A DNA stretch of 23,147 nucleotides from a virus. The notes below the pieces were generated by a model, which was given only the letters and a program-made list of their open reading frames with translations, did not search any database and was not told the DNA's origin. Every line of letters starts with the position of its first letter. Positions within the stretch are counted from its first letter, which is position 1. This document shows, piece by piece, positions 2,771-20,737 of this stretch. The stretch lies in the IMG/VR virus record IMGVR_UViG_3300013021_000009, positions 1 through 23,147 of that record; one strand, 5' to 3'. The translations under genes were made by a program, and so were the position numbers.

Positions 2771-2811
2771 CGGCCTATTGGTCACCCTTATTATTTATTT
2801 AGTTCGCACTT

Positions 2812-3756: not shown

Positions 3757-3772
3757 TGCTTAGAGGTTTAAA

Positions 3773-3802: not shown

Positions 3803-3810
3803 CGTGGTGG

Positions 3811-4341: not shown

Positions 4342-4398
4342 GATAATTTGATTTTAATGATAAAAAATAATTGATTGTTGGGTTAGGGTTAAGGGTGG

Positions 4399-5100: not shown

Positions 5101-5120
5101 GATTTTAAATTTAAAATTGA

Positions 5121-5363
5121 TTAATAAGAAGAATTATTTCCACCGGTGGCCCACGCTTCAATGGATGCAAGTGTGTATTTCTCGTAGGCTTCGGCTTGTG
5201 CATCAGTCAGGGGGATTTCTGCAGTTGTTACCACCTCCGGATCATGAAGCTGTTTGAAAAGTTCAGATTCGGTATCTCTGAGCATTTCAATTCTTGCTCT
5301 GGTCGCTAACTCTCCGTTACCTCTTACAAGGTCTTGGATTTGTCTTTTAGAAATTGTTTTCAT
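5121..5363 (-). CDS. Small hypothetical protein
   Basis: The protein has 80 residues from ATG 5363. It is hydrophilic and helical (starts MKTISKRQIQDLVRGNGELA; contains PLTDAQAEAYEKYTLASIEAW). It lies 20 bases before the 233-residue gene and about 48 bases after the 74-residue gene, so it reads as part of the same transcript. No family is recognised; small helical proteins between terS and capsid-related genes are common in phages. Confidence 0.55.
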   Translation of the reverse strand: MKTISKRQIQDLVRGNGELATRARIEMLRDTESELFKQLHDPEVVTTAEIPLTDAQAEAYEKYTLASIEAWATGGNNSSY

Positions 5364-5393
5364 CTTTGTAATTGTTTATTGATTAGAAAATAC

Positions 5394-5417
5394 CCGGTAG
5401 GATTATTGTCCTACCGG
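5394..5417 (-). other. Hairpin overlapping the end of the 74-residue gene
   Basis: CCGGTAGGA (5394-5402) pairs perfectly with TCCTACCGG (5409-5417) around TTATTG. The stop codon of the upstream gene (5411) lies inside the stem. On the minus strand it is followed by GTATTTTC, a weak T-tract, so it is a leaky terminator or a stability element. Confidence 0.6.
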
Positions 5418-5635
5418 CCGTTAATTGCGTTGGTTACTTCTTCAGCATCTCTTATGGCCTCTGAAGTGATAGGGATAACATTCTTTCTGCTTTGCATCAT
5501 TGCAAGGAACGTATCCCCGGTTTTTGTTGAAAATACAGGTGGCTCGTTAGCTTCCTTCGGGTTTATCTCCCCAGCCTGAATTCGTTTAAGGAATTCGATT
5601 TTCTCTGACTTGGTCAATTGGTCAACTCTTTTCAT
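5411..5635 (-). CDS. Small hypothetical protein next to terS
   Basis: The protein has 74 residues from ATG 5635, four bases after the small-terminase stop (5640-5642). Sequence features: KSEKIEFLKRIQAGEINPKE near the start, a central STKTGDTFLAMMQSRKNVIP and a hydrophilic end. The close spacing means it is probably co-translated with TerS and might be a partner, for instance a packaging modulator. That is inference only; no family is recognised. Its stop codon is buried in a 9-bp hairpin. Confidence 0.6.
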   Translation of the reverse strand: MKRVDQLTKSEKIEFLKRIQAGEINPKEANEPPVFSTKTGDTFLAMMQSRKNVIPITSEAIRDAEEVTNAINGR

Positions 5636-5639
5636 TTGC

Positions 5640-6110
5640 TTACTCCTTTTTTTGATCTGAATTATTTGTACTATCTGGATATAATCCGGCTATAATTCTG
5701 TTAAGGTCTTCCTCTGGCATCTTTTCAAATTCATGCCCTAAAACCTGTTTATCTCTCCAAACATTCGGCTTTCTATTTTTCAGCCAAAAGATTTGCGCGG
5801 TGGTGTCCGGCACAACCTGTTTAACCGTCTCCTTTTCTTCAACCAGCTTGCCGTTTTTTTTCTTCTTTTCGGTTTCGGTGTACTCATACCCCAAAGCCCT
5901 TTTTAAAAGAGAATTTTCCACCTGTATGTCAACCGGGGCTTTCCCACGCTTCAGAGCCTCTTTAAATTCCGGGTATTGCTCCACATACTTGTAAAAGGTT
6001 CCATTGCTTACTCCCAGCCTTTTCCTTATTTGCTGGTCTGTTAGGCCCTCCCTTGCGTACCCTTCAGCGAGTAAAGGCCATGTTTGCGGATCGTACTTTG
6101 TTTTTGCCAT
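5640..6110 (-). CDS. terS: Terminase small subunit
   Basis: The protein has 156 residues from ATG 6110. Residues 18-45 form a helix-turn-helix (GLTDQQIRKRLGVSNGTFYK) of the kind small terminases use to recognise pac or cos DNA. Residues 52-75 are an oligomerisation-type helix containing the common ALKRGKAPVD pattern. Residues 102-121 hold PDTTAQIFWLKNRKPNVWRD, a strong small-terminase signature (P-x-x-x-A-x-x-FWLKNR-x-P-x-x-WRD). No large subunit (ATPase plus nuclease) is encoded here, so this protein would need to redirect another phage's TerL, as terS of packaging satellites does. TTGCACCC half-sites lie 24-43 bases upstream of the ATG, which suggests regulation separate from the tape measure. 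Confidence 0.8.
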   Translation of the reverse strand: MAKTKYDPQTWPLLAEGYAREGLTDQQIRKRLGVSNGTFYKYVEQYPEFKEALKRGKAPVDIQVENSLLKRALGYEYTETEKKKKNGKLVEEKETVKQVVPDTTAQIFWLKNRKPNVWRDKQVLGHEFEKMPEEDLNRIIAGLYPDSTNNSDQKKE

Positions 6111-6133
6111 TGTTCTCTTGTTTTTCGTTGTCA

Positions 6134-6153
6134 GGGTGCGTCTAAGGGTGCAA
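6134..6153 (-). repeat. Paired TTGCACCC-type sites in front of terS
   Basis: On the minus strand, TTGCACCC (6153-6146) is followed 12 bases later by the variant ACGCACCC (6141-6134), so the repeats stand one helical turn apart. The terS ATG is at 6110. No clear TAnnTTTG is visible upstream, so whether they lie at a promoter or in a leader is open. Confidence 0.55.
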
Positions 6154-6228
6154 CTCCTTTTGTTTGGTTTAATACTCTCAGTTTTTAAAGGGGCTTTGGC
6201 TTGTAGTTTATCGTCCCGTATGGATGAT

Positions 6229-6429
6229 TTAAACCTTTTCCGGCCTTAAAACTCGTTTTCTCATTATCGCTCTTCGCCTCATTTGCTCAATTTCCTTTTT
6301 CCGGTGCCGCTCCTGGTTGCGTTCAATGTATGCTTTACGCTCTTCGGAATGAATCCAGTTGTCTTTGAGCAACTGATAAAGGTCATCTCTAAGATGAACT
6401 GGAATAGCTTCAATAAAATCTGCTAACAT
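6229..6429 (-). CDS. Small basic hypothetical protein
   Basis: The protein has 66 residues from ATG 6429. After MLADFIEAIPVHLRDDLYQL it becomes very basic (HSEERKAYIERNQERHRKKE, then MRRRAIMRKRVLRPEKV), suggesting nucleic-acid binding or disorder. It lies 128 bases after the tape-measure stop and 118 bases before terS. The family is not recognised. Its position between tape measure and terminase has no counterpart in ordinary phage gene order. Confidence 0.5.
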   Translation of the reverse strand: MLADFIEAIPVHLRDDLYQLLKDNWIHSEERKAYIERNQERHRKKEIEQMRRRAIMRKRVLRPEKV

Positions 6430-6457
6430 GACTTTTAATTTTAAAGGGTTTGTGATT

Positions 6458-6483
6458 GGGAACAGGCGGCCAAGCCTGCTCCC
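6458..6483. other. Hairpin after the tape-measure gene
   Basis: GGGAACAGGC (6458-6467) pairs with GCCTGCTCCC (6474-6483) with one A-C mismatch. No T-tract follows on the minus strand; the plus-strand side has CTTTTGATT. It is an mRNA structure between tape measure and the 66-residue gene rather than a clear leftward terminator. Confidence 0.45.
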
Positions 6484-6557
6484 TTTTGATTAGAACATTT
6501 GCCGATACCTATTTTTCAAGCCGGGGCCGTCTCTAATGTGGTTCATTGCTTACCTGT

Positions 6558-9500
6558 TTAAAGTCCTTTAGCTTTTAAGGGGTCGGAATTTTTGTCGGAA
6601 TTTTTGTTTGACTTCAAAACGTTAAGTTTGTTATCAATGCTTTCCAGGTGCTTGTTGTACCGCGTATTCGCCGCAATCTCTGACTGGTACCGGATTGATT
6701 CATTCATTATCCGTAAACTTTCCGCCTGATTAATTCGGATAGCGTTCATTTGTCCGCCGATCAATGAGGCGGTTCCCTCTGAAACTCCCTTTACTGCACC
6801 TGTTAAAGGGTCTTCCGATGCGCTGCCGTCAAAGATTGAAAAACCCTCTTCCTTAGCTGCTTTTTGCGCTTCTTCGAGTAGCTTTTTTACATCACCAACC
6901 CTCACCGCAGCATCTTTGGTAAAGTCACCTATTAAGCCTAAAGCACTTTGATAGCCTCCACCAGCATAAGCCTGTTCAAAGTCTTCCCCAAATTGATTGA
7001 GCAAAGGCCCCATCACCTGGTTTACAACTTCCCCGGCAATCATATTCTCAAGAATCTCTTCCACGCTGTCTCCAAAGGCGGCGGCCGCGTCTGTTCCTTC
7101 CTCAAATGCTGTTACAAGTGCATTTTTCAAATCGTCTCCCATCATGCCAACCAACTCTTGGCTCACTTGCTTCATTTGCTGTTCAGCTTCTTCCATTTTG
7201 GTTTGCCAGTCAATGGTATTCTGAAGCAAATTTTCTGTTTCCTCATTAAGTAAACCTTGCTCAATAAGTGTATTGGCATAATCAATATCTAACTTTCCGG
7301 TTTCATCAGTTAACTTCTCGTGCTGGCTTAAAAGGTTAGCCATCACCTTTTCCTCTTTTTTACCGAAAAGACCGCCTAATATTGCGCCGGCTGGCCCCAA
7401 AGCCGCGCCCCCTGCAACCTTACTCCAATCTGTCACATCTTTTGTTCCTACCTGAACAGTTCCTTTTTCGCTAAGGTCGTTCATAGCCTCCTGGTAACCT
7501 TGTGTCGCATCTTTGTAAGCTTCGGCCGCATCCGACATTCGCCCGACATAATCTGTCAAAAAAATACTTTCGTTGAGTTCGGTTTGAAGTCTTAATTGTT
7601 CGTTGAGGCTTAAATTGTACTGATTCTGAAGTGCATTAACGGAATGATAAAAGGCCTCTTCAGCTGCTTTACGCTCTTTGGATGCGTTTATTAAGCTTAA
7701 TGTAAAATCAGTTAATCTTTGCGCACCCGCAGATGCGGCCCCTAAATAGTCACCCGATGCGGCCATTTTTGCCATATTCCCGGCACTCCCTACCGTGTCC
7801 GCAATGGTCATCATAACGTTGCCAAGTTCCGCATTAATACCTCCAACGGCTTTGGCAATATCCTGCATTATGTATGCTATTTGTATGGCATTTTGTCCGA
7901 ACTCATCCATCCTCTGGAGGTCTAAAGCTGACTGCAAAGCTTGCCCGGCTTCCTCCCATTTGCGTTTGTAAGCATCCAGATTGGCTAAATCTTTGGAGTC
8001 TGGGACGGCTGGTGTGCCAACTTTTGCCCAAGAGCTTTTTAGTTCGTCTGGAACAGCCTGCCTGGCATCAAGAGTTAATCCCTCAGCTGCGGCCATTTGG
8101 TAAATCGCCATTTTGGCCTGAACGTTATCAGCGTATGCCTCCAACTGTTTTAAAAGAAAATCTTCCAGGCTCTGTCCTTGGTCCAGTAATTGGGAGTTGT
8201 GTTCTTTTATGGCTGCAACATCTTCCTTCCTGGCTGTGCGCAAGGCCCCAAAATACTCTTCGTAAGCTTTCTTTTGCTCTGATAGTGATTTTTCAAAAGC
8301 TTTGACATCAAAAGGCCCGGTTTTTTCTCCTCCTCCATCTTCACTACCACCAGATATAATATCCTCAATCTGTTTGTTTATTGCCTCAATATCCTTTTTC
8401 GCCTTTTCATACCCTTCTTTAGTTTCTGGCAATTGCATTGTGATACTTCCAAAGGATTCGTATTTTGCCAATTCCTTTTGAAGTCCTCTTCTTTGCTTCA
8501 TAAGGGCCGCAACCTCTTTCCCATAATCAACAAGGTCTTTTTGATATTCCAGGTCTTCAAAAAGACGGTCGCGCCTTTCCTCAAGTCTCTTTTGTTGATT
8601 ATACCTTTCGTTTGAATTAATTTCCCCCTCCCTGTATTGCTGTTCAATATTTTGGGATTCCGTAAGGATGCCAGACAATTCATTTTCAAGAACCTTTAAT
8701 TTTATGGTTTTCTCAAGGCTTTTCCCATATTCATCAATGGTGCTTTGGAGCGTGGTGATTGAAGCGTGTTCCGCATCTATATTAGAAAGAAGGTCGGGGT
8801 ATTTTCTATTCAACTCCTCAACAAGTTCAACCCTCCTTTCACTTCCTGGCTTAGCTTCTGCCAATTTCCTTTTGTACATATCGAGCATTCTGTTTTCATG
8901 CTCCATTTTGGAATTAACTTCCCCCGTAACATCTGCCAATCTCTCAACCTCACTAGCTGCATCTTTGGTTTCGGTATTAAAAACAGCCAAATAAGTAACC
9001 AAACCAGCAACGGCGGCGGCCAATAAACCCCAGGGATTGGCTTTTGTTACCAAATTGAAGGCGGCCTGTGCATCCTTCGCGGTTCTGATCTGTTTTACCA
9101 GACTGCCCCAAACCTTTATGGATTCCAATATATTGCCTGACTGTCTGGCAATGGCTCCCAGTGCCAAAGCGGCCCGATAGGCTCCATAAGTGGCAATAAG
9201 AACTTTCAGGGTGTCAATGATAGTTTCATAATTCTCCACCAAGGTTTTCAAACCGCCAATTCCGGCGTAAATCATGCCTTCATTGCTTTCCCCAACTTCG
9301 TTAAGCATACGGTCCCACGCGTCCCCTAAATTGGAAACCTGACCAGTGAGTGAACCAGATTGCTTTTCCATTAGGTTGAAAAATTGGCCGCCCTCATTGG
9401 TCATGTTCTTAATTGCAGCTTGCAACTCTTCAAATCCAATTTGGCCCTGTTCGGCCATTTTGTAGATCTCTTTGTCAGTAGCTCCGACTACTTTTGCAAG

Positions 9501-10043
9501 CTCTGAAATTATAGGAATACCCCTTTCGGCAAACTGGTTTAACTCTTCGGCCTGCATCTTGCCCTTAGCTGAAACTTTACCGTAAGCTTGTATAAGGTCA
9601 GTAACCGGAACGGATGCACCGGCGGCAAGGTCACCCAAACGGCGTAAACTTTCGGTTACTTGGTCGGCTGGTTCTTTAAATGCCAGCAACCTCTTTGCAC
9701 CTTGCCCCAGCTCTGTTAATGAAAAGGGGGTTTTGGCTGCCATTTCTACAACCTCACTCATTAACCGGTCCGCTTTTTCTTTGCTCCCCAGCATCGTTTG
9801 CAACGCAATATCCAGCTGTTGAAACTCCCCCCGGACTTGGATAACCTGATCTAAAAATCCTTTTGCGGCTGTGATTGAAAAGTACCCGGCCATTGCCGCA
9901 CCGATTCTTTTAAAGGTACTATCAACCTGGTTCCCCTGATTTTTCACGTCCTTTGTGAATTTAGAGATTCGCTGGTTCATCTCTCTTATGTCTCTTTTTA
10001 CCTGCTCGCCGTCAATTTCAGCGTGCCATACCAAATTTCCCAT
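6558..10043 (-). CDS. Phage tail tape-measure protein
   Basis: The protein has 1161 residues from ATG 10043, by far the largest product of the element. The N-terminal region (about 70-240) carries the tape-measure signature: GEFQQLDIALQTMLGSKEKA, then MAAKTPFSLTELGQGAKRLL, DLIQAYGKVSAKGKMQAEEL and QFAERGIPIISELAKVVG. Residues about 280-360 contain hydrophobic helices (LIATYGAYRAALALGAI and GLLAAAVAGLVTYLAVF). Long coiled-coil stretches follow (about 370-650). A Gly/Ala-rich region (about 865-895) and another coiled region lead to a C-terminus rich in Asn, Lys and Ser. In Siphoviridae- or Myoviridae-like tails such a protein sets tail length and passes DNA into the host. No tube, chaperone, distal tail or baseplate gene is nearby, and it precedes rather than follows terS, which is an inverted order. 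It is intact, with no frameshift. Confidence 0.9.
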   Translation of the reverse strand: MGNLVWHAEIDGEQVKRDIREMNQRISKFTKDVKNQGNQVDSTFKRIGAAMAGYFSITAAKGFLDQVIQVRGEFQQLDIALQTMLGSKEKADRLMSEVVEMAAKTPFSLTELGQGAKRLLAFKEPADQVTESLRRLGDLAAGASVPVTDLIQAYGKVSAKGKMQAEELNQFAERGIPIISELAKVVGATDKEIYKMAEQGQIGFEELQAAIKNMTNEGGQFFNLMEKQSGSLTGQVSNLGDAWDRMLNEVGESNEGMIYAGIGGLKTLVENYETIIDTLKVLIATYGAYRAALALGAIARQSGNILESIKVWGSLVKQIRTAKDAQAAFNLVTKANPWGLLAAAVAGLVTYLAVFNTETKDAASEVERLADVTGEVNSKMEHENRMLDMYKRKLAEAKPGSERRVELVEELNRKYPDLLSNIDAEHASITTLQSTIDEYGKSLEKTIKLKVLENELSGILTESQNIEQQYREGEINSNERYNQQKRLEERRDRLFEDLEYQKDLVDYGKEVAALMKQRRGLQKELAKYESFGSITMQLPETKEGYEKAKKDIEAINKQIEDIISGGSEDGGGEKTGPFDVKAFEKSLSEQKKAYEEYFGALRTARKEDVAAIKEHNSQLLDQGQSLEDFLLKQLEAYADNVQAKMAIYQMAAAEGLTLDARQAVPDELKSSWAKVGTPAVPDSKDLANLDAYKRKWEEAGQALQSALDLQRMDEFGQNAIQIAYIMQDIAKAVGGINAELGNVMMTIADTVGSAGNMAKMAASGDYLGAASAGAQRLTDFTLSLINASKERKAAEEAFYHSVNALQNQYNLSLNEQLRLQTELNESIFLTDYVGRMSDAAEAYKDATQGYQEAMNDLSEKGTVQVGTKDVTDWSKVAGGAALGPAGAILGGLFGKKEEKVMANLLSQHEKLTDETGKLDIDYANTLIEQGLLNEETENLLQNTIDWQTKMEEAEQQMKQVSQELVGMMGDDLKNALVTAFEEGTDAAAAFGDSVEEILENMIAGEVVNQVMGPLLNQFGEDFEQAYAGGGYQSALGLIGDFTKDAAVRVGDVKKLLEEAQKAAKEEGFSIFDGSASEDPLTGAVKGVSEGTASLIGGQMNAIRINQAESLRIMNESIRYQSEIAANTRYNKHLESIDNKLNVLKSNKNSDKNSDPLKAKGL

Positions 10044-10058
10044 GTTTTTTTAGTTTAG

Positions 10059-10325
10059 TTAGTTATTACTTGGTAACGGCAGATCCACCCATGAAGGCAC
10101 ATCTGAAAGGGTTTGTAACATCTCTTGAAAAAAGATTATATCGTGTTCAATCTGCTTTATGCGGATTCTGTTTTTATCTCTATTGAGTAAAAGCATTGAA
10201 ACCTCATGTGCCTTTTCCTGAATGACCTTTTCAATATTTATTATTCTCAGATTCCTTCTCACTTCATTCAGGTAGTTAAAATTCCCAGTAATCAGCTGGC
10301 CGGGTTTTATTGTTGGATTTTTCAT
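10059..10325 (-). CDS. Small hypothetical protein, first gene of the tape-measure operon
   Basis: The protein has 88 residues from ATG 10325. A longer reading from TTG 10358 would translate through the TTGCACCC sites and is rejected. It begins MKNPTIKPGQLITGNFNYLN and is helical in the middle (RDKNRIRIKQIEHDIIFF). Fifteen bases separate its stop from the tape-measure ATG, so it is the first gene of that transcription unit. In tailed phages the gene just before tape measure is often a tail-assembly chaperone, but size and position are the only support for that here. Confidence 0.55.
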   Translation of the reverse strand: MKNPTIKPGQLITGNFNYLNEVRRNLRIINIEKVIQEKAHEVSMLLLNRDKNRIRIKQIEHDIIFFQEMLQTLSDVPSWVDLPLPSNN

Positions 10326-10339
10326 TTTTTTCGGTTTTC

Positions 10340-10370
10340 GGGTGCAAATAGGGTGCAACTTTCAAAATTA
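10340..10370 (-). promoter_or_regulatory. Tape-measure operon promoter with two TTGCACCC sites at the start point
   Basis: On the minus strand TAATTTTG (10370-10363) fits the TAnnTTTG box. It is followed by TTGCACCC at 10358-10351 and 10347-10340, 11 bases apart. The first copy sits on the predicted start site, a classic repressor position. The nearest -33 TTG (10396-10394) has a 23-base spacer, a little long. The ATG at 10325 follows. Confidence 0.6.
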
Positions 10371-10447
10371 TATTATTAACTTACTCTGTCTTTCAATTAC
10401 TTAACCTGTTTTTATTTCATCCTTAGCAGACTTGAACCCTGTTTTTT

Positions 10448-10475
10448 GCCCCGGAATTGGCTATAATTCCGGGGC
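10448..10475. other. 11-bp perfect GC-rich hairpin between two small genes
   Basis: GCCCCGGAATT (10448-10458) pairs with AATTCCGGGGC (10465-10475), loop GGCTAT. It stands just past the end of the 77-residue gene (10483). On the minus strand it is followed by AAAAAAC, not T, so it is not a standard leftward terminator. Its role is unclear; it may block or shield RNA. It lies upstream of the tape-measure promoter. Confidence 0.6.
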
Positions 10476-10482
10476 GGGTTTT

Positions 10483-10716
10483 CTATCCTTCAACCTCTTT
10501 GATAATGGCCTTTAAGCCTTTTACCATTTGCTTAGCTTCTTTAATGGATATGGAGGTTACAATCTCTTTTGTCTCGTCCAAGTCGGAGACCACGAATGTG
10601 ATATCAGGTTTTTGAGGGATCCCATCCAGGTAAGGGGTTGTTTTCTGAAAGGTCATTTCCACGTCCATTGTGTTTTCTGGTTGGTAAACCGTGTGTTTTG
10701 ATTTGTGCTTTTTCAT
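10483..10716 (-). CDS. Small hypothetical protein after the helicase gene
   Basis: The protein has 77 residues from ATG 10716. It starts MKKHKSKHTVYQPENTMDVE; the second half (TFVVSDLDETKEIVTSISIK, then KQMVKGLKAIIKEVEG) looks like an alternating strand-helix fold. It follows the helicase stop by 69 bases and ends before a strong hairpin, so it probably closes the replication operon. The family is not recognised. Confidence 0.55.
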   Translation of the reverse strand: MKKHKSKHTVYQPENTMDVEMTFQKTTPYLDGIPQKPDITFVVSDLDETKEIVTSISIKEAKQMVKGLKAIIKEVEG

Positions 10717-10785
10717 TGCTTTTGATTTATTTGGTTAAAAATTGATTGAATTCTGTTTTTTAGGCCTCCACATTCTCCACGTTGT

Positions 10786-12105
10786 TTAATATGGTGCGGC
10801 CCCATCAGGTGTATGGATTATGTCATAAAATTTCGTTATTGTCTCATTGTGTTTAGTCACCGCGCCCCCGATTTTACCATCCCGATTTTTTGCGAAATAG
10901 AAATATGCTTTGCCCTTTTCGTCTATTGCTTTGGAATCGTAATAAATGGGTCGATGTGGAAAGACCACGATATCTGCATCCTGCTCAATAGCCCCGGATT
11001 CGCGAAGGTCTGAGAGTATGGGTTTTTTATCAGGTCTGTTTTCAGGCCCCCTGTTCAACTGTGAGAGCAAAAACACCGGCAAATCAAACTCCTTTGCAAT
11101 GCCTTTCATGGTTTTGGATATTTCAGCCACTTGTTGTTCTCTGGGAAGGCTCCTGTCTCCTTTCATTAACCCCAAATAATCCACAACGATTGCTTTAATG
11201 CCGTGCTGCTTTTTGTAGATTTTCGCTTTGGCTTTAACGTGTCCGAGAGATACGGCCGGTGTGTCATCAATGTAAAGTCCCAAATCCTGAACGTGTGAAA
11301 CAGCTTCATCCAAAACGCCCCATTGATTGGCGGTCAATCGGTCAAGGTCATAACCCGAAAGGCCCGATTCCCTTTGTAAAACCCTTGTGGTAAGTTTGCG
11401 GGCTGTCATTTCCAACGAAAAGAAAAGAACCGGGCCGGCCGTGCTGGCAATGTGTATCGCTTCATGAAGTGCAAACGCTGTTTTTCCCATAGATGGCCGG
11501 GCAGCAATTATTATCAAAAGACCGTTTTCCCAAACTGGCACAAATTGCCGGATAGCTGCTAAAGAGGGTTTAACTCCATATTGTGGCGTATTTTCGCTTT
11601 GTTGGCGGTCTCTTATACTTTCGATTGTATCGGCCACATTCTTTTTAAAATCTTTAATCTGCGATCTGTTTTCCACCTCATCCGTCACACGGTCAACCAA
11701 TCGGGTAGCTCTATCAATGAAATAATCCAAATCATTACTGGGGTCCGTTCCCAATTTATCCAAGCGTCTTATTTCAGTTACTAATGTGCGGCGTATGGAA
11801 TATTCTTTGATGATTCGGGCGTGATACTCAATATGTGCGGCGGCTGCTACGTCTGCCATTAAGCCGGTAACCTCAAAAGCTGACATCTGGCTTTGCTGCT
11901 TTTTGAGTTGAAAGATGACCGATGCAATATCTATCGGGGTGTTTTCTTTAAAAAGGTTTTGAATAGCCTCGTAAACCTCTGAATGCTCCTTTTGGTAAAA
12001 ATCTGATGCACTCAGTATGTCAGTGACTTTCAGGTAAGCGTCTGGCTCAATTATGAGCTGACCTAATACTTTTCTTTCGGTTTCTATGTCGTGTAGGTTT
12101 TCCAT
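10786..12105 (-). CDS. dnaB: Replicative DNA helicase, DnaB family
   Basis: The protein has 439 residues from ATG 12105, close to the usual DnaB length (about 450-470). The N-terminal domain (1-110) has the DnaB start ETERKVLGQLIIEPDAY and KEHSEVYEAIQNLF. The RecA-like domain has Walker A ARPSMGKTAFAL (202-213), Walker B AIVVDYLGLM (305-314) and the downstream LSQLNRGPENRPDKKPILSD and DLRESGAIEQDADIV, all conserved in DnaB. It unwinds DNA ahead of the fork as a hexamer. It follows the initiator gene by nine bases, matching the O-then-helicase modules of many temperate phages and satellites. Having its own helicase lets the element replicate outside the host's DnaA-DnaC control. Confidence 0.93.
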   Translation of the reverse strand: MENLHDIETERKVLGQLIIEPDAYLKVTDILSASDFYQKEHSEVYEAIQNLFKENTPIDIASVIFQLKKQQSQMSAFEVTGLMADVAAAAHIEYHARIIKEYSIRRTLVTEIRRLDKLGTDPSNDLDYFIDRATRLVDRVTDEVENRSQIKDFKKNVADTIESIRDRQQSENTPQYGVKPSLAAIRQFVPVWENGLLIIIAARPSMGKTAFALHEAIHIASTAGPVLFFSLEMTARKLTTRVLQRESGLSGYDLDRLTANQWGVLDEAVSHVQDLGLYIDDTPAVSLGHVKAKAKIYKKQHGIKAIVVDYLGLMKGDRSLPREQQVAEISKTMKGIAKEFDLPVFLLSQLNRGPENRPDKKPILSDLRESGAIEQDADIVVFPHRPIYYDSKAIDEKGKAYFYFAKNRDGKIGGAVTKHNETITKFYDIIHTPDGAAPY

Positions 12106-12114
12106 TGTCTATGT

Positions 12115-12795
12115 CTATGCGGGTGAATATTCCAAATAGTTAATGTCTGCTTTCTCCTGTTCGGTGGATGAGGTAATAATCTCATCGTTCCATGATTCAC
12201 CGTTAAGGTAAGTAAGCGGGTTTTTTCTGTATTGCTTATCAGGTGTTGATGTGATATAAGCCGGTAACGTCTGAAAGATTTTTTCTTTATCTGACTGGCT
12301 TAGTCTCTTCCACTTTGCAAAACATTTTTTTCGATCCTTCTTTTTGTCGTATTGCGTCCAAAACTTCTCAAAATCGCGTGTTAATACTTCTTTACCTTCT
12401 TTACCTTCTTTAGTAGTGGTCGTTTGTTGGTCGTTTGTTGGCTCTTTTGCTGGTCGTTTTGCTGGTCGCTTGGCTTCTCCTTCGCTCTGGTAATCTTCCC
12501 ATTTACAAATAGTTACAACGCTAAATTTGTTGGTCGTTTTGATGGCTATTTCGTTGGTCGATTTTAAGCGATTTAATGAAGTGCGAATTTGTCGTTCTGA
12601 TAACTTCAATTCTTTGGCTAATCTCTTCCTCCCGGTTATTAACTGTCCGGGCTGCAACGCGATACCCTGCCAACTATTTGCTTCAAAACTCGCATTTAGC
12701 AAAAGGTGTATAAACACTCTAAAGGTGTTGGCGTCATCGTACCACTCCCATTCTGTGAGTTTTCTGAAAAGTTTTATGTAACCTCCGTTTTTCAA
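12115..12795 (-). CDS. Replication initiator, phage O / DnaD-like
   Basis: The protein has 226 residues from TTG 12795; no ATG fits and the first residues (MKNGGYIKLFRKLTEWEWYD) match the conserved N-terminus of such proteins. Residues 1-95 form a winged helix (RLAKELKLSERQIRTSLNRL, then TNKFSVVTICKWEDYQ). Residues 100-135 are a low-complexity linker (AKRPAKRPAKEPTNDQQTTT). Residues 135-205 hold a domain starting FEKFWTQYDKKKDRKKCFAK and ending YRKNPLTYLNGESWNDE, common in phage replication proteins near helicase genes, which suggests helicase contact. The DNA of the linker carries the iteron-like repeats (12417-12563), like lambda ori within gene O. It lies 10 bases after the 70-residue gene and 9 before the helicase. 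Confidence 0.75.
   Translation of the reverse strand: MKNGGYIKLFRKLTEWEWYDDANTFRVFIHLLLNASFEANSWQGIALQPGQLITGRKRLAKELKLSERQIRTSLNRLKSTNEIAIKTTNKFSVVTICKWEDYQSEGEAKRPAKRPAKEPTNDQQTTTTKEGKEGKEVLTRDFEKFWTQYDKKKDRKKCFAKWKRLSQSDKEKIFQTLPAYITSTPDKQYRKNPLTYLNGESWNDEIITSSTEQEKADINYLEYSPA
12417..12563. repeat. Iteron-like repeats inside the initiator gene (candidate origin)
   Basis: Seven copies of TGGTCGTTT or close variants start at 12417, 12428, 12439 (TGGCTCTTT), 12451, 12463 (TGGTCGCTT), 12531 and 12555 (TGGTCGATT). Spacings are 11, 11, 12, 12, 68 and 24, near whole helical turns. Read on the coding strand the copies fall in all three codon phases (phase 0: 3, 4, 5; phase 1: 1, 6, 7; phase 2: 2), so the protein alone does not explain their conservation. 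Lambda's origin has the same layout inside gene O. Confidence 0.65.
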
Positions 12796-12805
12796 TTCAA
12801 AGCGT

Positions 12806-13018
12806 TTAGTAGATTACAAGTTTTTCAAGTTCTTTCGTTAGCCGGAAAGGGCTTCTCTGCCATTGCTTAAGAAGTTCTTCAGCTCTTTTCCGGTCGGGGG
12901 TAATGGTGCCGGGTAGTATATGATATCCAAGTGCTACCCCCCTGGTAGCGGTATCAATCTCCATTACATGATTGATTAGTCCGGCGTCAACGGTTGCAGC
13001 CACACAATAGTATATCAT
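12806..13018 (-). CDS. Small hypothetical protein of the replication operon
   Basis: The protein has 70 residues from ATG 13018, whose ATGA overlaps the previous stop by four bases, a coupling signal. It starts MIYYCVAATVDAGLINHVME and ends PFRLTKELEKLVIY. A GGAGG ribosome site (complement of 13024-13028) lies just ahead, one of the few clear ones in the window. No family is recognised; conserved position between a winged-helix gene and the initiator suggests a replication role, untested. Confidence 0.6.
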   Translation of the reverse strand: MIYYCVAATVDAGLINHVMEIDTATRGVALGYHILPGTITPDRKRAEELLKQWQRSPFRLTKELEKLVIY

Positions 13019-13338
13019 TGTGCACCTCCTTTCTTCCTGATCGGTGCTGAATGGATGAAATAAACTTTCATGCGGGTATTATCGCCCAAATGCAGCCAGT
13101 AGTCAGAGACTGGAACACCCCCGGCTCTTAAATAGCGAATATGCGACCTCGGATCAGATACACCAGTTTCCCTTACCAGTTCGGCAGTAGTGTATTGTCC
13201 GGTAAGTAGTACGGAATGGATTGATTGAGTGGCTGGCCCGAAGTCGGAAAGATTGATTATCTTTGTCCCATTGATTCCCCCTTTCGATTCTGCCCCTTTT
13301 ACCGTCCCCACGGTTTCGGGGCTTTTTTTATGCTTCAT
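13015..13338 (-). CDS. Phage-type winged-helix DNA-binding protein
   Basis: The protein has 107 residues from ATG 13338, overlapping the upstream gene by 11 bases and preceded by GGGAGG. Residues 1-30 are disordered. Residues 35-100 show a winged helix: QSIHSVLLTGQYTTAELVRE, GVSDPRSHIRYLRAGGVPVS and the wing DYWLHLGDNTRMKVYFIH. This SDPRSHIRYLR-x-x-G pattern is seen in small Bacteroidota phage and mobile-element proteins placed next to replication genes. It may help open the origin or regulate the operon. It ends with the overlapping ATGA of the 70-residue gene. Confidence 0.65.
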   Translation of the reverse strand: MKHKKSPETVGTVKGAESKGGINGTKIINLSDFGPATQSIHSVLLTGQYTTAELVRETGVSDPRSHIRYLRAGGVPVSDYWLHLGDNTRMKVYFIHSAPIRKKGGAQ

Positions 13339-13660
13339 GGCTGGCCTCCCTTCCTTCGGCTATTTTTTGAATATCTGAAAGCTTGTACCTGACTTGGCGG
13401 CCAATTTTGAAGGCTGGCAAAATGTCTTTTCGGTTCCACGTCCAAAGAGTCACCTTAGAAACCTGAAGCATCTTTGCGGCTTGGTCAGGTGTCAAATACT
13501 GCTCTTCAGATGAAATTTTTTCGGATTTGTTTTCATGAAGTTCTCGGGCGGCTGTCTGAATAGCATTTACAATTTCTATCCCCGATATTTCAAATTTGAG
13601 CTTTCCAGCGAGTTCTGGATTTGAAAGAATTGTGTGTAAATTAAATGGTTGTGTGTTCAT
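13328..13660 (-). CDS. AlpA/excisionase-like HTH_17 protein
   Basis: The protein has 110 residues from ATG 13660. Residues 56-102 form the HTH_17 domain: LTPDQAAKMLQVSKVTLWTW, then ILPAFKIGRQVRYKLSDIQK. It has a longer N-terminus (1-50) with no clear motif. In integrated elements such proteins act as excisionases or activators like AlpA. It is first in the replication operon (HTH, winged helix, 70-residue protein, initiator, helicase) and is preceded by a 12-bp inverted repeat that overlaps its predicted promoter, so it probably controls itself. A CI-like repressor is not seen in the element, so this may be its main switch. Confidence 0.75.
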   Translation of the reverse strand: MNTQPFNLHTILSNPELAGKLKFEISGIEIVNAIQTAARELHENKSEKISSEEQYLTPDQAAKMLQVSKVTLWTWNRKDILPAFKIGRQVRYKLSDIQKIAEGREASHEA

Positions 13661-13662
13661 GA

Positions 13663-13714
13663 CGTTGTATGTTTAATTGTGATTAACTTGATTCGTTACC
13701 ACAAACATACAACG
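13663..13714 (-). promoter_or_regulatory. 12-bp inverted repeat spanning the promoter of the HTH operon
   Basis: CGTTGTATGTTT (13663-13674) and AAACATACAACG (13703-13714) are perfect inverted copies separated by 28 bases. The right arm covers the -7 box TATGTTTG (minus strand, 13709-13702). The left arm ends two bases from the ATG at 13660. No good -33 is visible. A second small inverted repeat, CTTTAA/TTAAAG (13716-13732), lies just upstream. It looks like an operator pair for the gene's own product or a helper-phage protein. Confidence 0.6.
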
Positions 13715-13793
13715 ACTTTAAGTTAGTTAAAGAATTGATTGACAGTTACTTATCTAAAAGTATTTAGACTTTTTTAGATTTTAGGCATAAAAA

Positions 13794-13813
13794 AAGGCCA
13801 AATTAATGGCCTT
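13794..13813 (-). terminator. Terminator of the integrase operon
   Basis: AAGGCCA (13794-13800) pairs with TGGCCTT (13807-13813). On the minus strand the stem is followed by a run of seven T (complement of 13789-13795). It stands 30 bases after the 297-residue gene ends and separates the integrase operon from the HTH operon. Confidence 0.8.
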
Positions 13814-13843
13814 CAAATAGTTGTATTTTAGATAAGTTTTCTG

Positions 13844-14737
13844 CTATTCTTTTTTAATGTTTTTCAAATACCCCTCCGGGTAACCTTCATTTTCCATTAG
13901 GTCGATAATATCTCCCCTGCGATTATCTGGTTTGGTGTTCTCGTATAAAGGCTTTCCATTATCTAAGATGAAATATCGATTCCAAACCTTATACCTACCA
14001 CGTCCATCACTTACCATGCCTAAATGCTCACAGAATTTATTTGCATCGGACGGTTTACCAATCCAGATAACTTTGTTTTTCTCCGTTGGATATGGCCCAT
14101 TTTTCATAGCATTGTTAAAAACATCCTTGTCGATGTTATCAATGTATTTTCTATGCCAAAGTTTTTCCATTAACTGGGAATGATCCTTTACCTGTTCTTT
14201 GAGTTGTTTAAGTTCGTAGATTAACCAATACCACTCAAAGAATTCCAATAAGTCATCAACAGCAACCGTTCTTTCTCTTTCTCCAAAGGAGCTCCATTTT
14301 TGATAGTAATTAATAGCAAGCGGGGTTAATTCCTCTTCGTTCATGGGTTGTCCTGACTCATTCCAATCAATATAACCAAACCTTGTTTTTGTTATCTCTT
14401 TTATCATTAAATAAATCTGATTCTTTAAATATCCCTGTTCTCCGTCAGGTGCGATCTTTGATAATGCTTTATGATTTAGAACCTCCGAACCTATTAACCG
14501 ATTATTTTTCGTTATGAGCATCATTTCACTAATTACCTCCGCAGGTGATTGTTCTGGCAAAGGCCTTTCATTTTCAAGCCGATCATATATTTCAATCAGC
14601 GACCTGCCTTCTTTGATTACAGTTTCCATATCAGTAAAAACGGATTTTACTATATGCCCTGCAATTATATCCAATACTTTCTTATCAGTACCGGGAAACT
14701 CTTTTTGCAGTATTGTGTGTATGTTTTCCTTATTCAT
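13844..14737 (-). CDS. Integrase-coupled protein of unknown function (cargo candidate)
   Basis: The protein has 297 residues; its ATG (14737-14735) overlaps the integrase stop by one base (TAATG), so it is translationally coupled. It starts MNKENIHTILQKEFPGTDKK. A C-terminal region reads NKVIWIGKPSDANKFCEHLG (about 219-238), followed by a Gly/Arg strand GRGRYKVWNRYFILDNGK. The KVIWIG-x-x-x-D pattern recalls the end of RteC-like regulators of Bacteroides conjugative elements, but the match is short. It is the only long protein in the element without a structural, replication or integration assignment, so it is the best cargo or control candidate. It is terminated by its own stop at 13794-13813. 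Confidence 0.65.
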   Translation of the reverse strand: MNKENIHTILQKEFPGTDKKVLDIIAGHIVKSVFTDMETVIKEGRSLIEIYDRLENERPLPEQSPAEVISEMMLITKNNRLIGSEVLNHKALSKIAPDGEQGYLKNQIYLMIKEITKTRFGYIDWNESGQPMNEEELTPLAINYYQKWSSFGERERTVAVDDLLEFFEWYWLIYELKQLKEQVKDHSQLMEKLWHRKYIDNIDKDVFNNAMKNGPYPTEKNKVIWIGKPSDANKFCEHLGMVSDGRGRYKVWNRYFILDNGKPLYENTKPDNRRGDIIDLMENEGYPEGYLKNIKKE

Positions 14738-16038
14738 TACCCTACAACCTTTAAATGATTACCGTTTTTAGTCCAATGCTGTAATAACAAATTGGCGTGT
14801 TCTTCTTCGCTAACTTTTAGGTATTTACGAAAGGCAGACTCGGACTTATGCCCGCTGATTTTCATTATTGATTGCGAGGGGAATCCGGCTTTAAACAAGT
14901 TGGTACAAAAAGATCTGCGGGCAGAATGGGAACTGACCAATTCCCACTTTTGCCGTTTTACGGTTCTTTTGATACCTCCACGGGTTTCGGAAATGTGAAG
15001 ATCTTCATTTAACTCTGCCAGCTTTGCAATCTCTTTGAGAAAGTCGTTTGTCTTCTGATTCGAAATAGCGGCCGGCAAACGGCCTTCGTACTTCTCTAAA
15101 ATGGAAGTAACAACCGGATGCAATGGAATTACAACCCTATCCCCTGTTTTGGATTGTGTAACACGTATAAAACCGTCTTGAATGTTTTCAGGCTTCACTC
15201 GTGAAAGGTCGCCAAACCTTAAACCAGTCCAGCAACCAACCAAAAACAGATCCCTCACCCGTTCAAGGTATGGCCTGTTTGAAAGGTCAATTTGTTGAAT
15301 GCGGTTTAATTCGGCTTCATTAAGATAGATGCTGTCTGTTTCTACCTGAATTTTAACAAAGCGGTGTGATTTGTACCGTAGGTTTGTGTTTATACCGTCC
15401 TCCGTTGCTTTATTGAGAAATACTTTCAGGTTTTTTATAAATTTTCCTACGCTGTTGGCCTTGTAGTATTTTGGTTCCTCTGTGGATCCTATGTTTTTTG
15501 TTTGGAGAAAGCTTATCCAATCATTGTAAAAATCCAGGTCAATATCATTAAAATCAATTTCCCGACCAGCTGCAAACTCCTTGAGTAGTTCAAAGGTTCG
15601 GATATAGTCCCGGCGAATGCGATAATGTACAGGACTGCCCGTTTTTGGGTTTATGCTTTGCTCTGACTGCTCTATAAAATGAGAAATAAACTCAAACAGA
15701 GTGACTGGCTTTTTCTCAAAGCTTTCAGGATTTCTGAATTTCTCAATACATTCAGAAAGCCATTCTTTGGAAAGTTCCCCTTTGTCCTGGTAAGATTTTA
15801 AAATATGTCTTTCCAACGTCTCCAGCTGGTCTTTATACCAGTCCCTTTCTGCAAAGTCTCCTGAATTAGAAATTTTGGCGCGGGTAGTCCGTGCTTTCTG
15901 ATTCCAAAATTTAGCCGGGATGCTTAGATGAGTTTTTGAATAGACGTCCTTTTGTCCGTCCCGAAGTCGTACCCGAATAGTAACGGGCTTTGATTTTGTT
16001 TTCGCATTTGTGCGAATAAACCATTTGAGTGAAGCCAT
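14737..16038 (-). CDS. int: Tyrosine site-specific integrase
   Basis: The protein has 433 residues from ATG 16038. Residues 1-75 form a Bacteroidota-type arm-binding beta domain (VTIRVRLRDGQKDVYSKTHL, LSIPAKFWNQK). Residues 110-215 are the SAM-like core-binding domain. The catalytic domain shows all residues: R274 (TGLRFGDL), K297 (SKTGDRV), H371 and R374 (HSARRSF), H397 (SGHKS) and nucleophile Y406 (FRKYL). It recombines attP with the tRNA-Arg 3' end. It lies about 200 bases from the right core, reads away from it, and shares a transcript with the gene at 13844. Its promoter carries a TTGCACCC palindrome. Length and motifs are complete, so it is probably active. Confidence 0.95.
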   Translation of the reverse strand: MASLKWFIRTNAKTKSKPVTIRVRLRDGQKDVYSKTHLSIPAKFWNQKARTTRAKISNSGDFAERDWYKDQLETLERHILKSYQDKGELSKEWLSECIEKFRNPESFEKKPVTLFEFISHFIEQSEQSINPKTGSPVHYRIRRDYIRTFELLKEFAAGREIDFNDIDLDFYNDWISFLQTKNIGSTEEPKYYKANSVGKFIKNLKVFLNKATEDGINTNLRYKSHRFVKIQVETDSIYLNEAELNRIQQIDLSNRPYLERVRDLFLVGCWTGLRFGDLSRVKPENIQDGFIRVTQSKTGDRVVIPLHPVVTSILEKYEGRLPAAISNQKTNDFLKEIAKLAELNEDLHISETRGGIKRTVKRQKWELVSSHSARRSFCTNLFKAGFPSQSIMKISGHKSESAFRKYLKVSEEEHANLLLQHWTKNGNHLKVVG

Positions 16039-16245: not shown

Positions 16246-16260
16246 TCCCGCCCGGATCAC
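16246..16260 (+). repeat. attR core (15-bp direct repeat, copy 2)
   Basis: TCCCGCCCGGATCAC is identical to 421-435 and marks the right end. The sequence upstream (AATATAAATAAG) bears no relation to the tRNA, so this is a fragment, not a gene. Downstream, CCGCAATTCTT matches the left side at the same offset. Confidence 0.9.
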
Positions 16261-16759: not shown

Positions 16760-19700
16760 CTAATAAGAGTCAGATACCACCACCTTTCCATATCCTTTTT
16801 CAGTATTGCCAATCACATAAACGCCTGTAACAAGACCTGAAACAGCATTCTTTCTTTTTACCTTTGAGCGAAGCAACCTCCCGGTTAAAGAATAGACGTC
16901 CACCTTTTCGTCAGGCAACAGTTCATCAAAATCAATTTCCTGAACCGAAGTGTCATATTCATCCGAATTAGACAGAAAAACATCTTCAATAAGAATTGGA
17001 CTTCCCCCCAACGACCAGAACCCAACGATATAAATATGCGAAGGATCGAGCGCAACCAACTGTCCATCGACCTCTTTCTTCATGCGGTTCAAATCAATAA
17101 CCAATTCTGTTTCATCCTGCACGTCATAGCTAAAAGGTGAAGACCAGTAACTGCTCTCATCAAAGATGCGAAATGAGGCATTTCCGCCGGGAATTTTCTT
17201 AAGTTTAACCACCAGAAATTTATATCCTGACAAATCCAGTCCGTTGTCGTACTGCCAACCACCAAAGCCATATTGTCCGGTAATCAGTTCACCTGTCGAT
17301 TCATCAAAGGTTCCCGTTTCCCAGATGGAAGGATTAAATCCTTCGTTGGTTAAAGGAAAAATGCTTACGACGACAGTAAAACTGACACTTTGCTGATTTC
17401 CAAGCTTGTCCTCATAGGTAGCGGTAATATTAGCCTTCCCGTTTTCTCCGGCTACAACTCGTCCGTTCACCACGTATGCTACCTCGGGATTGCTGTTAAC
17501 CACAGATACTTCTGAAGAAACAATTTCCGTATGCCCATCCTGAAAAAGAGCAGTAATTCTTAATGTCCTGTTGCTTCCCAAAACCAGTTCCAACTCCTGG
17601 TCGTCCATATACAGTTGGTCCAGCGTTAACTGTTCCTCTGTAAAACCTGTAAAACTATCGTCGTAGAACAAATCTTCGGAAAAGGTTGCCTCCGTAGTAA
17701 ACCAGTACACATCCACAAAACCACCTGTTGTTTCAGTAGCATAGTTAAATATGGCGAATTTATTACCGGTAAAAACCGACAGGTCGAATGCCATATTCAG
17801 ATCATCTCCCATCGGCTGATATGTCTGATTATCGGTACTGTAATAAAACTTTGCGATACCGGTACCGTAGTTGGCTACTGCTCTTAAGTAAACCACTTCT
17901 TCAGCCAAAGCATCAGTCGCTACCTGAGCTACGCCATCCAGCTCTGTCATTATTCGCTTCTCTCCGTTAGCAACCGTTACGCCGATAAAAGCATAAGGAT
18001 CCTGAAAAACAGCCAAACCGGCCACATCACCTTCCTGCATATTACTGGCATCCAGCTTGATGGTTCCATAAGAATCAGTCGCTTCGGAGTGATAGCCAAA
18101 AATCCTCTGAGTCAAGGTATTTCTTGCATTCAGCAAACCATCGGTCACCCCTGCAGTTTCAAGACGCAGAAATCCGGGCCGGTCAAACAGCGACCATTTG
18201 CTGTCATCCGGATTGTGGTTCCACCCCCACTGCTTACCCAACTGATAATTTCTGAAGTTATCATTGGTAGGCAACACTGTTACAGGATACGATTGCCCAA
18301 CATCGGGCTTGCGATAAGTCGTAACACCCTGCCCATTTTCACCAATTTCAGGCCAGTTATTCACCCAGGTTACAGGTTGCAAATTGGGAAAACGCCCAAA
18401 AGGCCCCTTGTCATAAAACAAAACCGTCCACCATTCTCCTGTCTGCGTTTCCACCAATGCCCCCTGATGGATATTGTCATCATCCAATAAAAGTTTCTCT
18501 TCATAATCCCCAAACAGATTCGTGGACCGGAAAGCGACCTGTGAAGCAGGCCATCCTCCATAAGTAGCATAGATGTAATAAAACCCGTTTATCTGGTACA
18601 TGTGACATCCCTCCAGTCCAGACTCCGGTCGTTCAATCACAGTGCGGTCTTCACCTATGGCTTCAAAATTATCATCCAGCTCAGTAATCTTAATGGTATT
18701 GATTCCATGTACCACATAAGTTTTCCCATCCTCGTCAAAGAAAAGCCCCGGGTCATAATAACTACGGGAAAGTTTTTGAAGGTCCCATTGTCCTGCCGGG
18801 TCAGAACTGGTCAATAAATACGCACCCTCATCGAGGGTATTGAACATGATGTAGAAAGTGCCATCATTATATCGCAAACTGGACGCCCATTGCCCACGTG
18901 CATACCTGTCTTCTCCATTCAAAAGATTATATGCATCACCTGCCTCAATCATTTCCAACGGATTGCTGCAATATTCCCAGTTAACCAGGTCATAACTTTT
19001 CAAAAGTGTTGCTCCGGGGAAGATGTGCATCGTAGTGCTTACCATGTAGTAAACATCATCCACACGAATCACATCCGGATCGGAGAAATCGGCGTGAATC
19101 AATGGATTTGTATAAGTTCCGTCACCGTTGTCACTGTGCGACTGATACTGAAATTCCGGTCGGGGATGATTCGTTTCTGCATATTCCTGATACCAGTGAT
19201 ATACAGGCCAGGGACAGGCTTCCGGGTCATTCAAAAAAGTATAGGTTTCGCCATCAGCAGGCTCTTCTGCGCTAAAATCTGCCAGGAAGTGAGGACTGGT
19301 AAATAACAACCAGCTTACATTCCCTGTTTCGTCCATAATTCTCTTAAAGTTGGCTCCAAATCCTTCGCCACCGGCTGTTCCTGTAATCCCTATTCCCCGC
19401 GAAACATCTTCATACTTCTCCGGTGCCCAATCCATTTCAGTAATCATGATTGGCGCAAAATCAGCAACCGGCTTCACATTGGCATCCCACTCCTGCTTGA
19501 ATACTTCATATCCATCGGCACTCCCAAACCAACCGGGATAAATATGCACAGCATAACCAATATTCTCTCCCTCAATGGGATTAACGGCATACCCTTTGTA
19601 CTGGGCCTGATAGGCTGAACCCGGAATCCAAAGCACATTATGAAATCCGTTTTCCCGAATTTTGTCCACTACAGGCTGAAAAATCTGTTTCAATACATCA

Positions 19701-20347
19701 AAATGGGCCTGTGTATTGTTCCCGACGCTTCCATCAGCCAGACGAATCCTTACCGGTTCATTAGCCAGTTCAAACATCACCTCCTCCATTTCCAGAATTT
19801 TTGGATGAGAAGAAACGATATCCCAAACGGTCATCAGATATTCGGCATAATTGTAGTCATCTTCAACACCTATCACTTCGGGGCTCACACCGGGAGGTCT
19901 TATCACCACATACAAGCCTTTGGAGATGGCATATTCAGCCATCGGGACAAAAACCTCATCAAGATATTTTCTGAAGCGGGTTTCACTGAAACAATTCGGT
20001 AATTCGTGACCATCAGGAGTACAACCAGGCTCATTTGACCAATAGGGATCCATGTGCAGTCGGAGAAAGTTCATCTTCCATCCTGCATCCAAAATGTCAT
20101 CAATCAGTCCCTGATTATAGGTCAGGCATCCTTCCACATCATAATTATTCCAATATTGCCCCCGCTCATTGAACCAGGGGCTGTAGGTCTGGGCAAAACC
20201 GTGAAGGTTAACAGTATTTCCATGGTTATCTTTAAGAAAGCGACCTTCCACGTGCAGACGGGGAGTAGGCATCTCCGGCCAGGCACGGAGAGTGTCAATT
20301 GAAAAGAGTAAAAAGAAACCGAACAAAAATATTAAGCGAGCCTTCAT
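16760..20347 (-). CDS. Secreted GH5-GH43 bifunctional glycoside hydrolase with T9SS tail
   Basis: The protein has 1195 residues; ATG 20347 is chosen because MKARLIFLFGFFLLFSIDTL is a signal peptide, while an upstream start adds a non-signal stretch. Residues 30-395 form a GH5 (cellulase-type) domain with acid/base E197 (ELANEPV) and nucleophile E304 (ITEMDWAP). Residues 411-700 form a GH43 five-blade domain with D423 (FSDPDVIRV), D532 (YDPGLFF) and E579 (GLEGCHMY) as the likely catalytic trio. A GH43 C-terminal beta-sandwich follows, then a Big-like domain (VLGSNRTLRITALF), a galactose-binding-like module near 1030-1140, and a T9SS type A sorting domain (VDVYSLTGRLLRSKV, GVYVIG). The two activities on one chain suggest attack on substituted xylan (backbone plus arabinose or xylose side groups). 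It lies downstream of the GH10 gene. Confidence 0.88.
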   Translation of the reverse strand: MKARLIFLFGFFLLFSIDTLRAWPEMPTPRLHVEGRFLKDNHGNTVNLHGFAQTYSPWFNERGQYWNNYDVEGCLTYNQGLIDDILDAGWKMNFLRLHMDPYWSNEPGCTPDGHELPNCFSETRFRKYLDEVFVPMAEYAISKGLYVVIRPPGVSPEVIGVEDDYNYAEYLMTVWDIVSSHPKILEMEEVMFELANEPVRIRLADGSVGNNTQAHFDVLKQIFQPVVDKIRENGFHNVLWIPGSAYQAQYKGYAVNPIEGENIGYAVHIYPGWFGSADGYEVFKQEWDANVKPVADFAPIMITEMDWAPEKYEDVSRGIGITGTAGGEGFGANFKRIMDETGNVSWLLFTSPHFLADFSAEEPADGETYTFLNDPEACPWPVYHWYQEYAETNHPRPEFQYQSHSDNGDGTYTNPLIHADFSDPDVIRVDDVYYMVSTTMHIFPGATLLKSYDLVNWEYCSNPLEMIEAGDAYNLLNGEDRYARGQWASSLRYNDGTFYIMFNTLDEGAYLLTSSDPAGQWDLQKLSRSYYDPGLFFDEDGKTYVVHGINTIKITELDDNFEAIGEDRTVIERPESGLEGCHMYQINGFYYIYATYGGWPASQVAFRSTNLFGDYEEKLLLDDDNIHQGALVETQTGEWWTVLFYDKGPFGRFPNLQPVTWVNNWPEIGENGQGVTTYRKPDVGQSYPVTVLPTNDNFRNYQLGKQWGWNHNPDDSKWSLFDRPGFLRLETAGVTDGLLNARNTLTQRIFGYHSEATDSYGTIKLDASNMQEGDVAGLAVFQDPYAFIGVTVANGEKRIMTELDGVAQVATDALAEEVVYLRAVANYGTGIAKFYYSTDNQTYQPMGDDLNMAFDLSVFTGNKFAIFNYATETTGGFVDVYWFTTEATFSEDLFYDDSFTGFTEEQLTLDQLYMDDQELELVLGSNRTLRITALFQDGHTEIVSSEVSVVNSNPEVAYVVNGRVVAGENGKANITATYEDKLGNQQSVSFTVVVSIFPLTNEGFNPSIWETGTFDESTGELITGQYGFGGWQYDNGLDLSGYKFLVVKLKKIPGGNASFRIFDESSYWSSPFSYDVQDETELVIDLNRMKKEVDGQLVALDPSHIYIVGFWSLGGSPILIEDVFLSNSDEYDTSVQEIDFDELLPDEKVDVYSLTGRLLRSKVKRKNAVSGLVTGVYVIGNTEKGYGKVVVSDSY

Positions 20348-20737
20348 AAAGGGTAAATTTTGATTAAACATCATTCCATGATGACCGAATAGCATTGGTT
20401 TTGGAAGAACTATTCCCATCTATAAAAGAACGAAAATAGAGTTCATTACCAAAACCTGTCTGCATTTCATAAAAATAAGCCAAACCATACCCTCCTATTG
20501 AAGGATATTGAGGACTACAGATAAATCCCACATTCCAACTAATAACACTATTCGAATTAACATGAAGAACCTCTTTGACGTATCAGGAGGGAATGTGTCT
20601 CATTAATTCCAAATGTAATTTATGAGACATAAATAAAAGAACAAGAAAAAAACTCCCCCCGGAAAAATCCGGGAGGAGTATCTATTTAACCTATTGCTTT
20701 GAAAAAAAATCTTTAAGCATTTTTAAATAATAAAAAC
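20348..20737. other. Intergenic region between the GH10 and GH5-GH43 genes
   Basis: No gene is seen in these 390 bases. The stretch holds the GH10 terminator (20652-20679) and, at 20596-20629, an inverted repeat TGTCTCAT/ATGAGACA with an 18-base loop. The promoter of the GH5-GH43 gene should lie here, but I see no clean TAnnTTTG. Confidence 0.5.
20652..20679 (-). terminator. Intrinsic terminator of the GH10 gene
   Basis: ACTCCCCCCGGA (20652-20663) pairs with TCCGGGAGGAGT (20668-20679) with one C-A mismatch, loop AAAA. On the minus strand it is followed by a run of seven T. It stands about 60 bases after the GH10 stop, so the GH5-GH43 gene is at least partly a separate unit. Confidence 0.8.

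Follow-up and report, generated by a model that had tools for sequence, protein, structure and literature searches.

Replication origins that lie inside the initiator gene are known from phage lambda and from RepA_N plasmids (PMC5703833), and an intragenic origin built of 11-bp iterons is already known from phage L. In the latter, which is close to ST64T, six 11-bp repeats (TGTCCAACGGA) within gene 18 were published as the likely origin; the same paper notes that origin-binding proteins of distant relationship seem to recognise a different iteron each, located in the gene of the protein itself (PMC8022706). In the record of Sf6, a putative origin is annotated at its repeats, and a DnaB gene follows. 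In lambda, iterons in the middle of gene O are followed by a 38-bp AT-rich sequence (PMC3349717, PMC7466680), and in the RepA_N plasmid pSK41 the binding sites of the initiator N-domain are located centrally in its own gene, where the encoded linker is dispensable (PMC5703833).

Here, we analyzed a window of 23,147 nucleotides, meaning the whole stretch at positions 1 to 23,147 of the IMG/VR virus record IMGVR_UViG_3300013021_000009. A gene for a 226-aa protein with a TTG start is located on its minus strand at 12115-12795 (running from 12795 to 12115); all features of this gene given below lie on the same strand. The product comprises a winged-helix N-domain (residues 1-107), a low-complexity linker (108-140) and a small C-domain, and it is matched by PHROG families of DnaD-like helicase loaders and replication initiation proteins (E 4.5e-28 and 7e-21). 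The AlphaFold2 (AF2) model predicts a wHTH with a pLDDT over 95, including helices at 56-63 and 67-79 and wing strands at 83-87 and 92-96, and a disordered linker after the winged helix. In tblastn searches, the N-domain showed 28-32% identity to the O proteins of HK022, Sf6 and ST64T (E about 1e-6 to 1e-9), with further matches to staphylococcal and Lactobacillus DnaD-like proteins and to Vibrio and Cellulophaga phage proteins. A family HMM, rebuilt from the first-round hits before its E values were obtained, recovered the O-like proteins of the HK022/Sf6/ST64T branch at E 4e-24 to 2.5e-27 and did not match lambda O. Pfam likewise returned no lambda O family for the window protein, and a PDB profile search returned generic HTH matches only. 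By sequence similarity, the window initiator is a homologue of the O-like proteins of HK022, Sf6 and phage L/ST64T. The same initiator, with 100% protein identity across all 226 residues, is encoded on the IMG/VR contig IMGVR_UViG_3300033695_000026. The gene that follows it in the window (10786-12105, minus strand) encodes a DnaB-like replicative helicase (Pfam DnaB_C E 6e-76, DnaB N E 1.6e-23), in agreement with the initial annotation.

Within the initiator gene, the motif TGGTCGTTT, which reads AAACGACCA on the coding strand, occurs in four exact copies, two copies with one mismatch and two degenerate copies with two or more mismatches. Five of these lie in the linker-encoding DNA: exact copies at 12417-12425 (phase 1, encoding TTT), 12428-12436 (phase 2, NDQ) and 12451-12459 (phase 0, KRP), a one-mismatch copy at 12463-12471 (TGGTCGCTT, coding strand AAGCGACCA; phase 0, KRP) and a degenerate copy at 12439-12447 (TGGCTCTTT, coding strand AAAGAGCCA; phase 0, KEP), which is in register at 11/12 bp. 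The remaining three are located in the DNA encoding the wing: an exact copy at 12531-12539 (residues K86-T-T-N), a degenerate copy at 12543-12551 (TGGCTATTT, coding strand AAATAGCCA; I83-A-I), which forms the third element at 12-bp spacing and whose neighbouring columns show synonymous conservation, and a one-mismatch copy at 12555-12563 (TGGTCGATT, coding strand AATCGACCA; K78-S-T-N, end of the recognition helix). The spacings across all eight copies are 11, 11, 12, 12, 68, 12 and 12 bp. When exact-motif and mismatch positions were re-derived, the repeat coordinates of the initial annotation proved correct, as did its assignment of KRP, NDQ and TTT to iteron copies. It had listed seven copies, including the degenerate one at 12439, with spacings of 11, 11, 12, 12, 68 and 24 bp; the spacings stand, except that the last resolves into two 12-bp steps around an eighth, degenerate copy at 12543. 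Likewise, all three codon phases are used overall, as had been claimed, but the three wing copies share a single frame (phase 1).

Compared with synonymous-codon shuffles of the window gene, four exact copies are far above the null mean of 0.29, and this number was reached in 0/5000 shuffles. The commonest exact 9-mer likewise occurs four times, a count that stayed at three or below in all of 3000 shuffles, and the 14 7-mers repeated at lag 11/12 were equalled in 2/3000 shuffles. A looser count, covering every 9-mer of the entire gene and allowing up to one mismatch, gave 6 against a null mean of 4.8 (maximum 8), which is not significant alone. For this gene by itself, the argument lies in exactness and spacing; the strong argument comes from the family. 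Beyond the initiator gene, the window holds merely scattered single one-mismatch matches (313, 3820, 17009 and 18390), and among 395 genomes of the window's class the exact tandem was found only in the window's own genome.

A lambda-like origin had been proposed for this segment. The layout of iterons and an A-rich tract inside an initiator gene that precedes a helicase gene does match lambdoid origins, but the nearest relatives are the HK022, Sf6 and phage L/ST64T proteins, and the unit is an 11-bp iteron as in phage L gene 18 rather than the 18-bp iteron of lambda (PMC8022706). While lambda, like the window, has its iterons midway along the initiator gene, followed by a tract that is AT-rich in lambda and in the average of the window's family, its iterons are spaced at about 20-24 bp and the loader gene P comes next, whereas the window shows 11-12-bp spacing with DnaB next. 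Phage L/ST64T (gene 18 and gene 12), Sf6 (43/44) and HK022 (O/P) encode a homologous O-like winged-helix initiator. In L, ST64T and Sf6, 11-bp iterons lie in the linker part of the initiator's own gene as in the window, with a different sequence (TGTCCAACGG in all three), and in ST64T (gp12) and Sf6 (gene 44) a DnaB-type helicase follows; unlike the window, Sf6 has two sub-arrays 44 bp apart. Judged from sequence and gene order, the window arrangement is of the P22/L/HK022 type rather than that of lambda's O plus P. The DnaD-like or replisome organizer proteins of Staphylococcus and Lactobacillus phages share the N-domain family, and 11-bp linker repeats are present in the staphylococcal phage HSA84 (AACAACAAATC) and in AT3 (GTCAATCAA); in the records examined, no DnaB comes directly after these genes, and AT3 has a DnaC-like loader.

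The RepA_N initiator of pSK41 resembles the window in combining a winged-helix N-domain with sites placed centrally in the gene. Structures 4pql, 4pt7 and 5kbj align over initiator residues 1-116 (Z 8.2-8.7), but kinship to RepA_N does not follow from this, since CAP-type winged helices tie in Z over fewer residues; a Pfam search gave no match of the window initiator to the RepA_N domain. The staphylococcal plasmid pPR9 encodes an initiator whose N-domain is phage-like, and it can replicate as a mini-replicon (PMC5703833). We rejected it as an experimental link, as it is unmatched by the family profile and carries 15-bp in-frame repeats, and refer to it as an analogy only.

For the family survey, 265 relatives of the initiator were clustered at 75% identity, resulting in 85 clusters. 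Their linker DNA repeats at lag 11 with an 8.7-fold excess over the synonymous null and shows further peaks at 22-23 and 34, the excess at lag 33 (2.6-fold) being partly protein-driven; the N-domain DNA of the same clusters showed no such lag-11 repetition. For the 53 clusters retrieved solely through protein similarity, the lag-11 excess was 6.9-fold and a clear array was present in 33, while about 40% showed no clear array by the detector used. All three codon phases are used in 43 of the 59 clear arrays, in which 147 spacings are 11 bp and 44 are 12 bp. Overall, 11-bp iterons occur in this linker in the majority of the non-redundant relatives examined, and some relatives have 9-bp in-frame repeats only. 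The iterons fall into 18 sequence groups and are clade-specific, a further example being GGGCAAGCAAA in Cellulophaga phi18:3. Where AAACGACCAAC is repeated and read in three frames, it yields the 11-residue protein repeat KRPTNDQQTTN, a recurrent linker motif. The synonymous-codon tests support the earlier suggestion that selection acts on the DNA. A pattern opposite to the same protein with scrambled repeats was found, with the same 9-mer kept in proteins of roughly 30-50% identity that differ in their linker residues.

In IMG/VR viral contigs, pairs of AAACGACCA 11 bp apart sit in this initiator family in 56/63 cases, compared to only 14/35 for pairs 12 bp apart. A backward pattern was run as a chance control and turned out to be uninformative, with at least 120 matches and with TTTGCTGGT itself belonging to the iteron array; for this reason, the raw count of 76 contigs was set aside and location and spacing were used instead. 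In a survey of helicase neighbours on short flanks, DnaB was found for 7 clusters and DnaC for one, 48 had no match to the four query proteins and 29 had no room.

Just 3' of the last linker iteron of the window lies a purine-rich tract (12377-12416, minus strand), which is a candidate unwinding element. It contains the in-frame 9-bp units AAAGAAGGT and AAAGAAGGT followed by AAAGAAG, encoding KEGKEGKE. When 60 clusters were aligned on their last linker iteron, the AT content was 0.55 within the array, climbed to 0.75 between +10 and +30 (A 0.58, purines 0.77) and had dropped back by +50; the gene mean is 0.61. In the family average, an A-rich and purine-rich tract of low stability is located 0-50 bp 3' of the array, paralleling the order of iterons and AT-rich DNA in lambda; the window's own tract, at 0.67 (30-bp steps), is below the family mean of 0.75. 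We consider it highly probable that this segment is the theta-type origin of an integrated phage-like element of ~15.8 kb, located inside the element's own initiator gene, where the N-domain would bind the iterons, the tract would open and DnaB would be loaded. The repeats could instead be initiator-binding sites for autoregulation or copy-number control, by roadblock or handcuffing, with the melting site elsewhere. Plasmid iterons often serve control, and the position of the wing copies apart from the melting tract would fit such a role. We nevertheless regard control as an unlikely sole function, given that, averaged over the family, the A-rich tract directly adjoins the array, which is also the layout of lambdoid origins (PMC7466680, PMC3349717), and that in phage L and Sf6 the origin was placed at the repeats.

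The copies in the wing-encoding DNA were assessed in 59 genes with a per-gene matrix, made from the gene's own linker copies alone and scanned over its own N-domain DNA. The best N-domain site fell in the wing-encoding DNA in 54/59 genes, where synonymous shuffles predict 35.5, and in 28/59 it scored above at least 95% of the shuffles (p<=0.05); these p-values overstate independence, as relatives share ancestry. For genes fetched by protein alone, the best site was in the wing in 29/33 (17.4 expected) and reached p<=0.05 in 9/33; the window gene's own test, at p=0.06, is borderline alone. Each gene's matrix was also compared between its own wing and the wings of genes with dissimilar iterons, and the own wing reached a mean percentile of 0.88, compared to 0.57 for the remaining N-domain. 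With one value per iteron group (n=18), 10/18 were at 0.9 or above (p=0.0015), meaning that in 10 of the 18 groups the sequence of the wing follows the iteron of its own gene. The codon choice points in the same direction: the wing Thr-Thr is encoded as ACG-ACC in 20/22 AAACGACCA clusters and in 0/6 other clusters, and Thr codons elsewhere in the N-domains of AAACGACCA clusters are ACG in 20% and ACC in 13%. A motif-blind scan for synonymous conservation over all N-domain columns ranked the KSTNEIAIKTTNK residues at the top (z 23, 14, 10, 9, 9 and 9; these values ignore relatedness, the control being the other columns of the same genes). In the other 52 clusters, the columns of the KSTNEIAIKTTNK segment also lead, with other codons. 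In the AF2 model, the KSTNEIAIKTTNK residues begin at the end of the recognition helix, continue along the first strand of the wing and end at its tip. Many relatives appear to keep their wing DNA as an iteron through codon choice, with the residues unchanged. Iteron-like copies in the wing DNA are missing from Sf6, HK022 and a few others, and from the enterobacterial members, and wing copies are therefore not essential to the design.

Since synonymous conservation alone cannot separate DNA from RNA, the conserved wing codons could reflect an mRNA element or a translation effect, with the linker array still acting as origin. This is less likely again than a pure control function, as the conserved wing letters are those of the same gene's linker iteron and change with it, and the distances between the wing copies and the start of the linker array, taken at its first copy, group around 55, 66-68 and 78-79 bp, i.e. 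at multiples of about 11. That the repeats have no DNA function and arose as a side effect of repeats at the protein level, or through recent slippage within a disordered linker, would suit the low complexity and hydrophilic character of the linkers and the relatives with 9-bp in-frame repeats only, but is very improbable in view of a spacing of 11 that shifts the frame so that residues differ from copy to copy, repeats above the synonymous null, a 9-mer persisting in divergent proteins and constrained wing codons within a folded domain.

In the mechanism that we infer for the origin, the winged-helix domain of the initiator would bind the tandem 11-12-bp iterons on the coding strand, i.e. the linker array of five and the three copies in the wing DNA about six helical turns (68 bp) off. 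The initiator would coat the linker array, and probably the wing-encoded copies too, on one face of the DNA, the bound array would assist the opening of the purine/A-rich tract that lies directly downstream, and DnaB, encoded by the next gene, would then be loaded at the opened tract. The wing copies could act as high-affinity nucleation sites, in array phasing or in autoregulation, and the data favour none of these. On balance, we favour the view that, across this widespread family, the wing-encoding segment is one of the sites read by the protein itself, in helical register with the linker array. Specificity determinant and target would then be the same nucleotides and co-diversify, making each gene a natural protein-site pair. 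As each gene contains the sites for its own product, an iteron and the domain that reads it would travel together. That the iterons extend into the wing-encoding DNA and co-vary there with the linker iteron over the family appears to be new here; no description of wing-encoded iterons was found in the open papers searched, which, with subscription literature outside the scope, is weak evidence of novelty.

The genes of this family, carrying their own candidate binding sites, pair dozens of divergent winged-helix domains with putative DNA targets. Such a set provides ready data for deriving a recognition code and for predicting, from sequence alone, where phage origins lie and whether they are compatible. 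In the wing copies, one DNA stretch clearly doubles as the code of a folded protein and as a probable cis element, which is testable by synonymous recoding.

With regard to the surroundings, the region at 1558-16038 encodes an integrase, an excisionase-like gene, the initiator, DnaB, a 1161-aa tape measure protein and a small terminase subunit. Neither a large terminase nor a portal was recognised in this region, and its sole head-like match, to a major head protein family at 3811-4341, is weak (E 9e-4); the element is possibly a phage satellite or else a prophage in decay. A 15-bp direct repeat (TCCCGCCCGGATCAC) is present at 421-435, the 3' end of a tRNA-Arg(TCT) gene (361-435), and at 16246-16260 beyond the integrase, and the two copies are probably the att sites of the ~15.8-kb element. 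Large open frames adjoining the element (16760-23131) look like host polysaccharide-degradation genes, as judged by eye from their translations.
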